A stretch of 47,809 nt of DNA from Gammaproteobacteria bacterium (lineage in GTDB: Bacteria > Pseudomonadota > Gammaproteobacteria > Nitrosococcales > Methylophagaceae): the NCBI GenBank assembly GCA_028598975.1, contig JAQRMU010000065.1:1-47809 (forward strand). Reading direction: 5' to 3'. A program made the translations under genes and the position numbers. The notes beneath the pieces were generated by a model. That model did not search any database, was not told the DNA's origin, and was given only the letters and a program-made list of their open reading frames with translations. Positions 41,802 through 47,809 of the stretch are shown piece after piece. Numbering within the stretch: the stretch's first letter is position 1; every line of letters starts with the position of its first letter.

Positions 41802-43010
41802 TTAAACCTGTGGTGCTAGTTCTGGAAAGTACCACGGTTCTGCATGCTCAGGTATTTCCCATCGCAGGGGGGATTTACTGCTAGTTTCACTTAACAGGCC
41901 GTCACTTTTTAACTGGCTAATTAAACGACGAGCACTACGTTCAGGCATTGCACATAACTCTAAGGCATGTGAACGCTCTATCTCACCTTGTATAAATGCA
42001 GTATGTAATATCAAACTTGCAACCGGTTTCAACTTATCAGCCATCCCCCTAACTCGAAAGTCATTTCGCGCTTGAACATAAGCATCAATCCGCTTACGTA
42101 AATACACCAAGTTTAATAAGCCAGACGTATAATCAACCTGATCAATCGCCGTATCCATCATATACTCACAAAAGACCAACACACCTTTTTCTGTGAGAGG
42201 CCCTCTTCCATCATAAACACCCTGCTGAACATTATCTGCACCAGCCAGCAACGTCTGATAGTGCTTTGAACTACGCGCTAAACCACGACTTAAACACCAT
42301 GAACCATAGCTTTCCAAGCCAACAGCTCTTAATGCAGCATCGCTTAACAATCGCCCAACGCGACCATTACCATCAATAAAAGGATGGATCCAAGCAAAAC
42401 GATGATGTGCCGACATAATCGCAATTAGTTTACGGTCGCCTTTAAACTTATTTGGATGATACACCTCACAGAACCGAGACATAAGCGATGCAATATCTTT
42501 GGCTTGGGGAGGAATATGGCGCCCGACTTTTACAGTACGTTCTCGCCATTCACCAGGAACAACCTTATCAACCACCTCACCTTGTTCATTCTTAATCAGC
42601 CATAAACTTTCAGGAATATGTTGATAAAACTGTTGATGGATTTCTTGAATAAAATCCGGTGAAAATAGTATATCCAAATCAGGGTTTTGTTCTCGCAACC
42701 ACGCTTGCACAGCGATATGACCAAGAGATTCAGACTGCAAATCACGCTTAGCAGGATCATGACTATACTCACCACGATGTGCCGCTCTAATTTCGTACGG
42801 CTTCGTTGGATTACCTTCAATTAAATTTGAATAATACGAATTAATCACACGCATATAACGCTCTAACGTGGTAAGTGTAATTGGTGATAATTGCCCTGCT
42901 AAGCGAGCGGATGATGTCATTAACTCCACCGCTTTATCGGCCACGACAGAGTCATGCAAAGCCTTATCACTGGGTATGAAAGGTGTGATATTTAGTATCG
43001 ATTCAGACAT
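41802..43010 (-). CDS. Fic family protein with N-terminal inhibitory helix (class II-like)
   Basis: HPFIDGNGRVGR active-site motif; SNLIEGN matches inhibitory [S/T]xxxE[G/N]; C-terminal winged-helix-like region. Confidence 0.92.
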   Translation of the reverse strand: MSESILNITPFIPSDKALHDSVVADKAVELMTSSARLAGQLSPITLTTLERYMRVINSYYSNLIEGNPTKPYEIRAAHRGEYSHDPAKRDLQSESLGHIAVQAWLREQNPDLDILFSPDFIQEIHQQFYQHIPESLWLIKNEQGEVVDKVVPGEWRERTVKVGRHIPPQAKDIASLMSRFCEVYHPNKFKGDRKLIAIMSAHHRFAWIHPFIDGNGRVGRLLSDAALRAVGLESYGSWCLSRGLARSSKHYQTLLAGADNVQQGVYDGRGPLTEKGVLVFCEYMMDTAIDQVDYTSGLLNLVYLRKRIDAYVQARNDFRVRGMADKLKPVASLILHTAFIQGEIERSHALELCAMPERSARRLISQLKSDGLLSETSSKSPLRWEIPEHAEPWYFPELAPQV

Positions 43011-43397: not shown

Positions 43398-43420
43398 GTT
43401 CTCAGCACGAGTCTTGTAAA

Positions 43421-43548
43421 CATAACGCCAAATTCAGTGGCCGCTGGCAGATATAAGATGGACTCTGCAAGAACACTGAACTTTGATATAAAATGACCTT
43501 TGAAAGCAAACTGCGCTGCCAGCGGTCAACTGGAATTTTTTGTTAGCC
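43421..43548 (-). other. integron attC site 1 (downstream of vapC)
   Basis: Minus strand GGCTAACAAA...CCAGTTGACCGCTGGCAG...CTGCCAGCGGCCACTGAA...GGCGTTATG; R''/R' boxes and imperfect stem. Confidence 0.85.
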
Positions 43549-43551
43549 TTT

Positions 43552-43932
43552 TTATTTATATAAATCAATGCTCAATACTTGGTTTAATAACCGAAAATGT
43601 TTATCTAAAGAATAAACTTTGCTACCATTCTGCTTTGCATTTTGTGCAATAATAAAATCAGGGATACCTATTCCATTTGCACCACTTTCCAAACATTTCA
43701 CCTGAAACTCAATAATTTCTTTCCAGTTAATATCTAATTGAATTTTATTAATTTCGTATAACAGTGCAATTACTTTTGTTTGCTTTTTAATTTTGAGGTA
43801 TGGCAGTAATTCTGCTAGTACAATCTCGTTAGTTACGATCAGGTTTTCATCTATTAACAAATCTAGTTTTTTAGAATCACCACTACCCCGAAAGTAATCA
43901 ATCCAAACTGATGTATCTACTAAAACTTGCAC
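43552..43932 (-). CDS. vapC: VapC-type PIN-domain toxin RNase
   Basis: MQVLVDTSVWIDYFRG; IVLAELLPYL; GIPDFIIAQNA. Confidence 0.88.
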   Translation of the reverse strand: MQVLVDTSVWIDYFRGSGDSKKLDLLIDENLIVTNEIVLAELLPYLKIKKQTKVIALLYEINKIQLDINWKEIIEFQVKCLESGANGIGIPDFIIAQNAKQNGSKVYSLDKHFRLLNQVLSIDLYK

Positions 43933-44126
43933 TAATGACGGTCTCTGATTTCATCAAGATTAATATCTATATCAATTTTTCCTTTATACTTTTTAAGGTC
44001 AGAAATTTTTGATTTTCTAACCAATTCTTCTAATGCCCGAACAATTACTCCAGTTTTTGTGTTCGTGTGAGTTACTTTCATTGCTTCAATAAGCAAATTT
44101 TCTGGTAAATCAAGAGTGGTTCTCAT
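43932..44126 (-). CDS. vapB: VapB-type antitoxin
   Basis: MRTTLDLPENLLIEAMKVTHTNTKTGVIVRALEELVRK; overlaps vapC by 1 nt. Confidence 0.85.
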   Translation of the reverse strand: MRTTLDLPENLLIEAMKVTHTNTKTGVIVRALEELVRKSKISDLKKYKGKIDIDINLDEIRDRH

Positions 44127-44260
44127 ATTTTTCTCCAAAAGTTATGCATATAAATTTACAACATTATGCATAACTTTTCAAGAGGCTAAAACCAAAGCTT
44201 TCAGATAAAATCTGCTTGCTCATTCAGGTATTCCTCAAATTTGATATTTCGCAAAAAGCA

Positions 44261-44355
44261 CATAACGCCTTGCTCAGCGGCAATTTAAAGTGGCACGTTT
44301 TTGCGAATGCAAAAAAAGTGACGCTTTAAATTGTCCGCTGGAGCTATTTGTTAGC
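44261..44355 (-). other. integron attC site 2 (between PP2C gene and vapBC)
   Basis: Minus strand TGCTAACAAAT-AGCTCCAGCGGACAATTTAAAGCGTCAC ... CACTTTAAATTGCCGCTGAGCAA-GGCGTTATG; near-perfect stem with single unpaired bases on one arm. Confidence 0.92.
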
Positions 44356-45097
44356 ATTTTTTTAATATTCCTAAACTGCAATCATCATGAGTTTTATGCT
44401 TAATAATCTCATTCAAATTACTTTCTAATGCACTCTTAACTTCTTTGCTGCTTCCTACATTTAGCCAATTTATTATTTCTGCATTAACTGGTGCTAATTC
44501 TTTTGTTCTAGAATCATACAAACTTTCATCCGACCCATCAGACATAAGAATAAAGCCTGTACTATCGACTATATTTCCTTTTATTATCCTTAATCTATCA
44601 GGGTAGCTATCAGTAGTTGTAAAAAAGGTAGAATTTGAATACTCGCCATTATCTGGATGAGACAATACGGAAATTTTATTATCTTTATCCAATACTCCAA
44701 TTACTCCATCGCCAATATGACCTACTATAAATTTATCATTTTTTATAACAACAAATAACAAAGTAGATGAAAGCTCTTTAATGTCTATTTCTCTATTTTT
44801 TGCTTCTTTTGCAAGTTGTTCTTCGATATTGTTTATGATTTTCTTTGAGGTATTTTTTACCTGCAACAAGTTAGAAAAATTAGATTTTAGATATGTAAGA
44901 ATCTCCTTTGTTACAATCTCTGCACCAATGTCTGAAAGCTTGTAGCTACCCGCACCATCCGCAAGTGACAATCCATAGAAAACACCCGTTGAATGTTTAC
45001 TAACAAGTTCAAATGTTCTATCTTGGCATGGGATGTTTTTTGTCAAATGCCCCCTGCCTGTTACATAAGCACTTGCTGATTTCCAAGTATCGCTCAT
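44351..45097 (-). CDS. PP2C-like Ser/Thr phosphatase (TerY-P triad)
   Basis: LADGAGSYKLSDIGA, GHIGDGVIGVL, MSDGSDESLYD. Confidence 0.88.
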   Translation of the reverse strand: MSDTWKSASAYVTGRGHLTKNIPCQDRTFELVSKHSTGVFYGLSLADGAGSYKLSDIGAEIVTKEILTYLKSNFSNLLQVKNTSKKIINNIEEQLAKEAKNREIDIKELSSTLLFVVIKNDKFIVGHIGDGVIGVLDKDNKISVLSHPDNGEYSNSTFFTTTDSYPDRLRIIKGNIVDSTGFILMSDGSDESLYDSRTKELAPVNAEIINWLNVGSSKEVKSALESNLNEIIKHKTHDDCSLGILKKC

Positions 45098-45780
45098 AGT
45101 TCAATTTCTATTACTGGTGGTGTTGGTGGCAAGGATGGCTTATCACCTGGAACAGATTGTGAAGCAACACTTACGCTTTGGCTTAACCATTCAAAGAACT
45201 CTTTAAAGTGTTCTGCTGATTTTACTTTTAAAACTAAATTATTTTTCATTGAAGAGAATTGTTTAAGAACAGTAATGTCCGCGTTATCTCCTATAGCAAC
45301 AGAAAATACAGTTAGTTTTTTCTTGCTGGATAACTCTTGGACTCGACGAACGGCAGTTGATATATTATCGGTGGGGCCACCATCACTCATAAGAACTAAC
45401 CAAGGCTGATAATAATCAACACCTTTATTTGAGAACTCTCTTTTTCTTTGCTCTAGTAAATCCAGCGCTAATTCAACACCTTCTCCCATTGATGTAGCAC
45501 CATCAGCCTCTAAAAGAGTTATTGTTTGCCTGTCAACACTAGAAAAATCAGATATTGTTTCAGCTTCACTATTAAATGAAACCACTGCCAATTCAACTGA
45601 ATACCGAGCTATTTCATCTGTTTTTATGGCATCAAAAAAATACTGCACGCCTTTGTTTAATTCATTAATAGGTGCGCCATTCATTGAATAGCTGGAATCA
45701 AGACATAGACAAACTGGTAGCCTAGTAGTAGGGTTTTCTATCAAATCCCGCTCTCTTAGCACCATTAGATTATTGCTCAT
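45094..45780 (-). CDS. TerY-like vWA-domain protein (TerY-P triad)
   Basis: MIDAS LCLDSSYSMNGAPI, GATSMGEGVELAL, LMSDGGPTDN. Confidence 0.92.
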   Translation of the reverse strand: MSNNLMVLRERDLIENPTTRLPVCLCLDSSYSMNGAPINELNKGVQYFFDAIKTDEIARYSVELAVVSFNSEAETISDFSSVDRQTITLLEADGATSMGEGVELALDLLEQRKREFSNKGVDYYQPWLVLMSDGGPTDNISTAVRRVQELSSKKKLTVFSVAIGDNADITVLKQFSSMKNNLVLKVKSAEHFKEFFEWLSQSVSVASQSVPGDKPSLPPTPPVIEIEL

Positions 45781-45799
45781 AATATTTTCTCCTAAACAT

Positions 45800-47629
45800 T
45801 TAAAATAAAGACTTCAAGAAACTAAATAAGTCACTGCTACTTGTCTCTTGAGTGGTGGAATCAGATGATCTCGAATATGTTGTTTGATCGTATTTTTTTT
45901 GATTTGAATGATTACGATCTTTTTTATTTTTTCGACATGACTTGCATCTTTTCGGTATATCAAAACCTTTTCCTTCGAAAAAAGACTTTTCTGGATCAGT
46001 AAGAAAGTAATCTGCTCCACAAGATACGCATTTGTACTTAGACGTTTCCTCGTTAACAACATTTCCGTCTTCGTCAATTTGTTTAAACGAGGATGGAAAT
46101 ATTAAATCCGTTTGATGTCCTTTTTGTAGTTGATGAATATACGATTTGATATTTTTTACTGCTTCATATAACTGTATGTTTTGATCTAGTTTGAATATTT
46201 TCCAAAAAAGCTCTTTTAATTTGTAAGGTAGGTGACTCCATATATAAACCCATTGCCCATCAGGTGCATTCTTATAGTTACTATCCTCGCCAAATTTATA
46301 TGGAAAGTTTTCTGGCTTCATATTTTCTCTTTCACTGCCACCGCCGCTAAATGAGTACGGAAGTTTTCCTGGCATCAGAATTTGGAATATTAATGTCATG
46401 ATTGCAAAAATATCATCATCCTTTGTTCTAAGATATTCAGAATATTTTTTCCCGTGGTTTTCTATTTTTGTATAGGGAGTCATTCCAACAGAACATGGGT
46501 AGCCTTCAACTTGAAAGCTGTCGGTATCAATAAAATAGATATTAAGCTCATCTTTAATCAATATATTATTAGGATTAATGTCGCCTAATATAATATTATT
46601 TTCATGTAGTGTTTTTACGGTATCCAAAATACTTAAAGCAACAACAGCAAGATGTAATCTTGTCCAATGCGGAAATTTCTTTTTTAAGAGCGGCGGTATA
46701 AAAATAGATGTTTTTATTTCCACACCGTCTGCTTGCTTCATAAAATATCCAACGAATTCCTTATTCTTGTTGAACGCTATAAATTCAGGAAGACATACAC
46801 CTTTAATATTTATTTTGTTTTTCGTTAATAATGTGATTTTTTTCTGTTTGAAGTTTGTATTTTTGTCTGACTTGTATATTTTACATACATATCCATTTTT
46901 ACTTGTAAAATAAACTGAACCTTCCCCGCCAGCTCTACCTATTTGTTTTTCAAGATGATATTTATTGCCTTTTTCATCAAAGACATAATCATTAACTTCA
47001 GGAATCATACTAACAGAAGTTTTATACTCTCCGTTTTTTACGCTTTTAGGTAGGCTAAATGGTGCTGCTTTCTGGTGAAAGTTCGGCTTCGGATTGCTGT
47101 ATTGTTTGTTATTATAACTAACAGCTCTTCTGCTATTATTTTTAAACTGTACGATATTTCGGTCTTTTCTGCTGAGGTAAAAAACAACGATGTCTTTTAT
47201 CCTATCAACAGATCTTGCATTTTTTAAATCAAGTATATCTTGTGATAAATTGCCGGATTTTTTATAGCTATTATCATTTGTAATTAGGCACAAGTTGTAT
47301 TTAATCCGCAGAGAGGAAAATAGAGAAATAATTGCATTATCTGCAAACTGTTTGTCAAATGTGCTTTCTACCACATATAGGTTATTTTCAGCAAAGTCAT
47401 TAAGTATTTTTATTCCTGAGTTAATATTTTTTATTTTTCTTGAGCGGCTGTGCTTATAAACCTCATTATAAACGGACTTTGGTATGATTATTTGCTTTTG
47501 ATGCAAGCATAGTAATGGGGCAATAATTTTAAAGAAAATATATTCAGAATTGTCTTGTAAAAGACTAGACGTATCAACAAATACTTTGTAGTCACTTGAA
47601 ATGACTTTTTCAAAATCAATGTATTCCAT
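45800..47629 (-). CDS. PIN domain - protein kinase - C-terminal zinc-ribbon fusion (TerY-P triad kinase)
   Basis: PIN: VFVDTSSL / YNEVYK / FADNAIIS / LITNDNSY; kinase: IGRAGGEGSVY, VCKIYK, LGDINPNNILI, FIDTDSFQ; Zn ribbon CVSCGADYFLTDPEKSFFEGKGFDIPKRCKSCRK. Confidence 0.85.
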   Translation of the reverse strand: MEYIDFEKVISSDYKVFVDTSSLLQDNSEYIFFKIIAPLLCLHQKQIIIPKSVYNEVYKHSRSRKIKNINSGIKILNDFAENNLYVVESTFDKQFADNAIISLFSSLRIKYNLCLITNDNSYKKSGNLSQDILDLKNARSVDRIKDIVVFYLSRKDRNIVQFKNNSRRAVSYNNKQYSNPKPNFHQKAAPFSLPKSVKNGEYKTSVSMIPEVNDYVFDEKGNKYHLEKQIGRAGGEGSVYFTSKNGYVCKIYKSDKNTNFKQKKITLLTKNKINIKGVCLPEFIAFNKNKEFVGYFMKQADGVEIKTSIFIPPLLKKKFPHWTRLHLAVVALSILDTVKTLHENNIILGDINPNNILIKDELNIYFIDTDSFQVEGYPCSVGMTPYTKIENHGKKYSEYLRTKDDDIFAIMTLIFQILMPGKLPYSFSGGGSERENMKPENFPYKFGEDSNYKNAPDGQWVYIWSHLPYKLKELFWKIFKLDQNIQLYEAVKNIKSYIHQLQKGHQTDLIFPSSFKQIDEDGNVVNEETSKYKCVSCGADYFLTDPEKSFFEGKGFDIPKRCKSCRKNKKDRNHSNQKKYDQTTYSRSSDSTTQETSSSDLFSFLKSLF

Positions 47630-47688
47630 TCATTTAATCTCATTTTTCTCTGTTGATGCTGACATTGTTCGATACCTGTTTTATATGC

Positions 47689-47792
47689 TAACTTGTTATT
47701 AACGGGAAAGGATTTTCCCTGTAATTCTTAGACATAGTCGGAACTCCTTTTCCTAGTAAGTTGATAACCAAGACCAAACAGGGAAAGAATTA
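47689..47792. repeat. dispersed structured repeat, copy R2 (right window end, same orientation as R1)
   Basis: taacttgttattaacgggaaaggattttccctgtaattcttagacatagtcgga...ttcctagtaag..gataaccaagaccaaaca. Confidence 0.65.
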
Positions 47793-47809
47793 CTCTGAAC
47801 TATAACGCT

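Follow-up and report, generated by a model that had tools for sequence, protein, structure and literature searches.

We analyzed a stretch of 47,809 nucleotides (the window) from a gammaproteobacterium of the family Methylophagaceae (GCA_028598975.1). The window is the entire contig JAQRMU010000065.1 (C62) of a genome assembly of 1.88 Mb in 94 contigs. At one end, it carries three co-directional genes on the minus strand, which encode a kinase with an N-terminal PIN domain, a vWA protein, and a PP2C phosphatase. Judging from its sequence, this triad is a three-gene integron gene cassette. An earlier reading of the DNA letters by a model (the original prediction) had described the three genes as tightly packed, and coordinates and Pfam matches bear this out: the kinase and vWA genes are separated by 19 nucleotides, and the vWA and PP2C genes overlap by 4 nucleotides, with ATGA at the vWA stop codon. 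The triad consists of the following features.

45800-47629, minus strand: first gene of the cassette, a PIN-serine/threonine kinase-zinc-ribbon fusion protein of 609 amino acids (open reading frame, Pfam, alignment)
47135-47629, minus strand: N-terminal PIN domain of the fusion protein, residues 1-165, with D19, E56, D97, and D119 (alignment, Pfam, AlphaFold, Foldseek)
46190-46981, minus strand: kinase domain, residues 217-480, with K250, GDINPxN (D350/N355), and DxD at 368/370 (Pfam, alignment, tree, fold match)
45911-46036, minus strand: C-terminal treble-clef/zinc ribbon, residues 532-573, CxxC...CxxC (zf_Tbcl)
45094-45780, minus strand: TerY-like vWA protein of 228 amino acids (Pfam, complete metal-ion-dependent adhesion site [MIDAS])
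44351-45097, minus strand: PP2C phosphatase of 248 amino acids (Pfam, metal-binding aspartates intact)

Pfam identified VWA in the 228-residue protein (E = 2.2e-14) and PP2C_2 in the 248-residue protein (E = 2.2e-45). In the kinase protein, the match to zf_Tbcl at residues 532-573 was above the cut-off (E = 2.8e-8), which agrees with the predicted C-terminal zinc ribbon, and the match to Pkinase at residues 224-426 was below it (E = 6e-6). Alignment showed that K250, D350, N355, and D368/D370 of the kinase are all retained. The MIDAS of the vWA protein is complete (D28/S30/S32 in the D28xSxS motif, T96, and D133), and the phosphatase keeps D26, D47, D130, D187, and D238/D239. The 609-residue kinase is smaller than all 12 full-length relatives with which it was compared (690 to 978 amino acids), and the phosphatase lacks the C-terminal extension typical of most of its relatives (about 330 amino acids or more). 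Scanning for promoters at the triad locus gave no excess over shuffled sequences, and Rfam returned only one weak, sub-threshold match at the locus, within a Fic gene (see below).

A PIN fold at the N terminus of the kinase

The original prediction held that the kinase starts with a complete PIN domain, and it proposed a comparison of this region with PIN families by profile and structure. That comparison recovered a PIN fold. Against the whole 609-residue protein, PIN_4 matched below the cut-off (E = 0.006), as it did against residues 1-165 alone (E = 0.0006; 20.5 bits, cut-off 21.9). All 14 aligned relatives matched PIN_4, the best with an E value of 3.6e-8. Using an alignment of 14 sequences, AlphaFold modeled residues 1-165 with a predicted local distance difference test score (pLDDT) of 84.5 and a predicted template modeling score (pTM) of 0.82. 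When this model was compared with solved structures using Foldseek, the high-probability matches included Utp23, Utp24, PIN proteins of the small-subunit processome, SMG5, SMG6, VapC, and a protein from Thermus with a PIN domain, with E < 0.001 for the best match only. Because all 14 relatives match PIN_4, the model is confident, and PIN proteins are its high-probability fold matches, the sub-threshold match is not due to chance, an explanation that we rejected on residue conservation and fold. On the predicted model, the N terminus is almost certainly a real PIN fold. When the PIN alignment was used as a profile against solved structures, no relevant match emerged, and a comparison of the PIN region with viral predicted structures gave weak matches only. 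The full-length AlphaFold model was moderate in quality, and its kinase part matched solved kinases.

The acidic residues that had been picked out from the letters, in VDTS, NEVY, FADNA, and ITNDN, proved to be a conserved tetrad. D19, E56, and D97 are each present in 17 of 17 aligned relatives and D119 is present in 16. The single exception is one of two tandem PIN-kinase copies in Megasphaera (locus L023, 5905-7539 and 7907-10432), the second of which has N at the position of the fourth PIN acid. Judged by the topology of the predicted model, the acids are placed as in PIN folds: D19 follows the strand at residues 14-18, E56 lies in the helix at 51-61, D97 opens the helix at 96-107, and D119 follows the strand at 112-117. 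The domain is probably a metal-dependent nuclease in the lineage to which the window belongs.

The PIN fold and the order of the acidic residues are shared with SMG6, Utp23, Utp24/Fcf1, and VapC. Unlike these nucleases, the PIN domain of the window is fused to a kinase and a zinc ribbon, is closest to PIN_4 in Pfam, and has no VapB partner. VapC toxins are small, stand-alone PIN proteins with an adjacent VapB, whereas this PIN domain lies within a 609-residue kinase; the VapBC pair nearby in the window is a separate cassette. We rejected a relationship to VapC because the Pfam family differs (PIN_4 versus PIN) and there is no antitoxin gene.

Kinship with TerY-P and recurrence across bacteria

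TerY-P is a triad of a vWA protein, a PP2C phosphatase, and a serine/threonine kinase (PMC11090510, PMC7699616, PMC10889362). Protection by TerY-P against T7-like phages and against Pseudomonas Autographiviridae has been reported (PMC7699616, PMC10889362); the original prediction counted the triad among experimentally screened anti-phage candidates. The TerY-P kinase ends in a zinc ribbon or an OB fold, a tail that may bind nucleic acid (PMC11090510). In the Escherichia coli yegL-pphC(yegK)-yegI locus, which likewise encodes a vWA protein, a PP2C phosphatase, and a divergent kinase, YegI autophosphorylates and is dephosphorylated by PphC, according to the summary in PMC13232886.

The predicted likeness to TerY-P was supported, and the original interpretation as a whole was supported in part. 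Like TerY-P, the window encodes the three protein types in adjacent, co-directional genes of a tight operon, with catalytic residues intact in all three, and its kinase has a C-terminal zinc ribbon and is homologous to YegI (tblastn; 27% identity, E = 7e-17). It departs from canonical TerY-P in three respects: the N-terminal PIN domain, the gene order, and the placement of the kinase in a separate clade. The integron cassette had been missed altogether. None of the canonical loci that we examined has a PIN domain (E. coli yegL-pphC-yegI, Deinococcus, Pseudomonas fulva, Sphingobium, and six Pseudomonadota genomes). Nearly all of them are ordered vWA-PP2C-kinase (vWA-kinase-PP2C at L041), whereas the window is ordered kinase-vWA-PP2C, though order is not stated as defining the family. 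The E. coli locus differs further in that the kinase domain of YegI is N terminal.

We searched plasmids and genomes with the kinase alone as query. Full-length PIN-kinases were found in Lysinibacillus, Fusobacterium, Paenarthrobacter, Lachnospiraceae, Peptostreptococcus, Epulopiscium, Caryophanon, Megasphaera, and others, as well as in Campylobacter and Helicobacter. Wherever enough flanking sequence was available (17 loci), vWA and PP2C genes lay directly downstream in the order kinase-vWA-PP2C; these 17 include a Fibrobacter triad without PIN (L028) and two identical copies from one genome (L025 and L026). The predicted association of PIN-kinase fusions with vWA and PP2C genes was recovered at 16 loci with PIN among 17 with the triad. 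The triad loci belong to Bacillota, Fusobacteriota, Actinomycetota, and Campylobacterota, plus the one Fibrobacterota locus. Four of them (L015, L016, L020, and L023) have two tandem vWA genes instead of one. The triads of Lysinibacillus and Paenarthrobacter are plasmid borne, and that of Peptostreptococcus is flanked by a type III restriction-modification system on one side and a type I system on the other. With the same query, viral contigs yielded no relatives, and phage genomes yielded two weak matches, neither extending to the PIN region. A sequencing artefact was rejected as the source of the fusion, given the intact open reading frames and the conserved operon.

At three Campylobacter/Helicobacter loci, the PIN-kinase gene has a frame break at or next to a homopolymer tract: C9 in L025 (near 6509), A8 in L030 (near 6856), and A7 in L029 (near 6854). 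These breaks resemble phase variation of costly genes. Phase variation in Campylobacter and Helicobacter often affects restriction systems.

The PIN-kinases formed one group in a maximum-likelihood tree built from kinase domains, with support of 89/81 when the Paenarthrobacter sequence was included and 96/80 when it was not. The Fibrobacter kinase fell inside this group, which was separate from the YegI-type kinases of canonical TerY-P in the same tree. Its neighbor is a clade of TerY-P-like kinases from Campylobacterota (L068-L075), whose N-terminal domain aligns with PIN and has mostly lost E56, D97, and D119. Because the neighboring clade has this PIN-aligning, acid-depleted domain, the sequences suggest that the fusion may predate both clades, with the nuclease site perhaps retained by the PIN-kinases and lost from the Campylobacterota clade.

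In Fusobacterium, Lachnospiraceae, Peptostreptococcus, and Epulopiscium, the PIN-kinase gene is directly preceded by a gene for a further PIN-like protein, which also has a helix-turn-helix (HTH) domain. All four of these HTH-pseudoPIN proteins have lost D97, the third catalytic acid. The genes are located as follows.

L012, 4979-5887: HTH-pseudoPIN gene
L016, 4934-5923: HTH-pseudoPIN gene
L020, 1893-2852: HTH-pseudoPIN gene
L054, 437-1501: HTH-pseudoPIN gene

In the SMG5-SMG6 composite PIN of eukaryotic mRNA decay, an active PIN is paired with a paralogous PIN (PMC12923823). By analogy, the HTH-pseudoPIN could pair with the active PIN as a regulatory partner. The likeness applies to several Bacillota and Fusobacteriota loci; the cassette of the window, unlike SMG5-SMG6, has no pseudoPIN partner.

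Loss of catalytic acids in these proteins bears on an alternative in which the triad is a defence system whose kinase acts as effector by phosphorylating proteins of the host or phage, while the PIN domain is a non-catalytic RNA sensor or dimerization module. The acid-depleted domain of the Campylobacterota relatives and the loss of D97 in the upstream HTH-PIN proteins both speak for such a role, as does the reported anti-phage activity of canonical TerY-P, which has no PIN. However, essentially all members of the window's clade, from four or more phyla, keep the four acids, which would be unexpected if the fold alone mattered. We consider a kinase effector unlikely, though it is the strongest of the alternatives.

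A foreign cassette in an integron array

The triad is bounded as an integron cassette would be, and a toxin-antitoxin cassette follows it.

44260-44355, minus strand: attC site of the triad cassette, at its 3' end (GCTAACAAA...GGCGTTATGT; inverted repeat, fold)
47800-47809, minus strand: aGCGTTATAG at the end of the contig, the visible part (3' core) of the attC site of the preceding cassette
43552-44138, minus strand: next cassette, a VapBC toxin-antitoxin pair with VapB at 43932-44138 and VapC at 43552-43932 (Pfam)
43420-43548, minus strand: attC site at the end of the VapBC cassette, where the array on the contig also ends (matching ends; weaker fold, z = -2.5)

The attC site of the triad starts with GCTAAC, within which the PP2C stop codon lies, and ends with GGCGTTATGT. 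Its bottom strand folds at -29 kcal/mol (z = -6.5), a value that no shuffled sequence equaled, and, in keeping with an attC site, one of its arms has unpaired bases. Because an attC core stands at the contig end and an attC site follows the PP2C gene, the cassette extends over about 3.54 kb (44260-47809). The VapBC pair lies between two attC sites; with it the array ends and chromosomal genes begin. The gene for a Fic/AMPylation protein at 41802-43010 (PADLOC SoFic, 1.3e-33), close behind the final attC, is apparently chromosomal. An integron integrase is present in the genome, on contig C73 (L003, 134-1099; TIGR02249, 433.7 bits), near the contig end and beside a gene resembling glnE. The integrase gene is interrupted by one in-frame TGA, and cassette acquisition by the integron may have ceased. 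On contig C15 (L033, 60-840), at the contig start and next to an apparently chromosomal gene, a HigBA-like cassette lies between two attC-like sites; the repeat downstream of this pair is 80% identical to the attC site of the triad.

With toxin-antitoxin cassettes so near, the triad might itself be addiction-like, a PIN toxin restrained by its own kinase and phosphatase that stabilizes the cassette array. The HTH-pseudoPIN gene upstream of the Bacillota and Fusobacteriota triads could likewise act like an antitoxin. Yet the cassette of the window has no small antitoxin gene, and three enzymatic and scaffold genes far exceed what a toxin-antitoxin pair needs, so that we regard addiction as the least probable of the alternatives.

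The G+C content of the triad is 32.7%, versus 42.0% for positions 1-41000 of the window, where no stretch of the same size falls below 39.5%. The triad was absent from all 97 relatives searched, 28 of them from the same genus. Among 399 Pseudomonadota genomes, a PIN-kinase was found in this one only, and in a set of 387 genomes from its class, it was the sole match at E <= 1e-40. A related kinase occurs in 15 of 299 genomes in a sample of Campylobacterota, many of the degenerate-PIN type, and matches were found in 7 of 400 genomes from the phylum of Peptostreptococcus, one covering the C-terminal domain only. Given its AT-richness and its absence from relatives, the triad is foreign and recently imported.

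This distribution is relevant to a third alternative, in which the triad is a regulatory or stress module comparable to the E. coli yeg locus and Ter systems, adjusting RNA processing or answering metal stress without being dedicated to phages. TerY-P has been hypothesized to be a metal-sensing phosphorylation switch (PMC11090510), PMC13232886 states no phage role for the E. coli yegI/pphC pair, and some PIN-kinase loci stand among housekeeping genes. Against this, the distribution is very patchy and the triads occur in plasmid, cassette, and restriction-modification contexts, which together favor a role in conflict. A stress module not dedicated to phages therefore seems improbable to us, somewhat more so than a kinase effector.

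A proposed phosphorylation-gated RNase

The best explanation of the locus as a whole, to which we assign a probability of roughly 0.55, is that the triad is an apparently undescribed, PIN-bearing variant of the TerY-P kind, borne on a cassette, that most probably serves in defence or stress, with an RNase as effector and a defence-like role. Literature searches for PIN with TerY-P or with vWA/PP2C returned no description, and an earlier mention, for example in the founding TerY-P papers or in Gao et al., is possible. In resting cells, the kinase and PP2C would keep the complex in one phosphorylation state, with the vWA protein as a metal- or ligand-dependent scaffold joining the two. A signal of infection or stress would shift that state and free the fused PIN, which would then cut RNA of the phage or host tRNA, rRNA, or mRNA, guided by the zinc ribbon. 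The cutting would halt growth or phage replication. What sequence and structure contribute to this scheme is a PIN fold with its tetrad, an intact kinase, zinc ribbon, vWA MIDAS, and PP2C, and one gene order across phyla. Control of the PIN by the kinase and phosphatase has, in our judgment, slightly better than even odds, and for an anti-phage function of the PIN-kinase triad, we see the odds as even.

Several observations count against an RNase effector with a defence-like role. Canonical TerY-P protects without any PIN, so that the PIN need not be the effector, and the degenerate domain of the neighboring Campylobacterota clade means that it is not always a nuclease. The Fibrobacter triad dispenses with it. 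The full-length model is weak (pLDDT 65, pTM 0.50) and for that reason does not predict that the PIN domain touches the kinase. PADLOC gives generic kinase and phosphatase matches only. Defence context is mixed: in addition to the toxin-antitoxin cassettes of the window and the plasmids elsewhere, clear defence neighbors occur at one other locus only, the restriction-modification systems of Peptostreptococcus, and several loci are found amid housekeeping genes such as those for cytochrome assembly, Hsp70, and NrdD.

Integrons are known to carry defence cassettes (Darracq et al. 2025; Getz et al.; reviewed in PMC12409362). The triad resembles those described there in consisting of foreign, probably defence-related genes that are bounded by attC sites and stand beside a toxin-antitoxin cassette. 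It differs from the cassettes as that review presents them in having three genes and about 3.5 kb. If our reading is true, integron cassettes can carry a three-gene, 3.5-kb signaling-effector system, beyond the defence cassettes reported so far.

TerY-P itself has a switch (kinase and phosphatase) and a scaffold (vWA) and no evident effector with which it would stop phages. In a lineage whose switch is joined to an intact nuclease, RNA cutting as a function of phosphorylation could serve as a readout, and natural controls are provided by the sister lineage with a degenerate PIN and by the canonical triads without PIN. More tentatively, and at less than even odds, these loci could represent an as yet undescribed class of immune systems that cut RNA under the control of phosphorylation. 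Such systems would be TerY-P-like triads with a PIN endonuclease effector that is switched by a fused kinase and PP2C, tuned in some lineages by a paired HTH-pseudoPIN and by phase variation, and small enough for one three-gene integron cassette to carry them.

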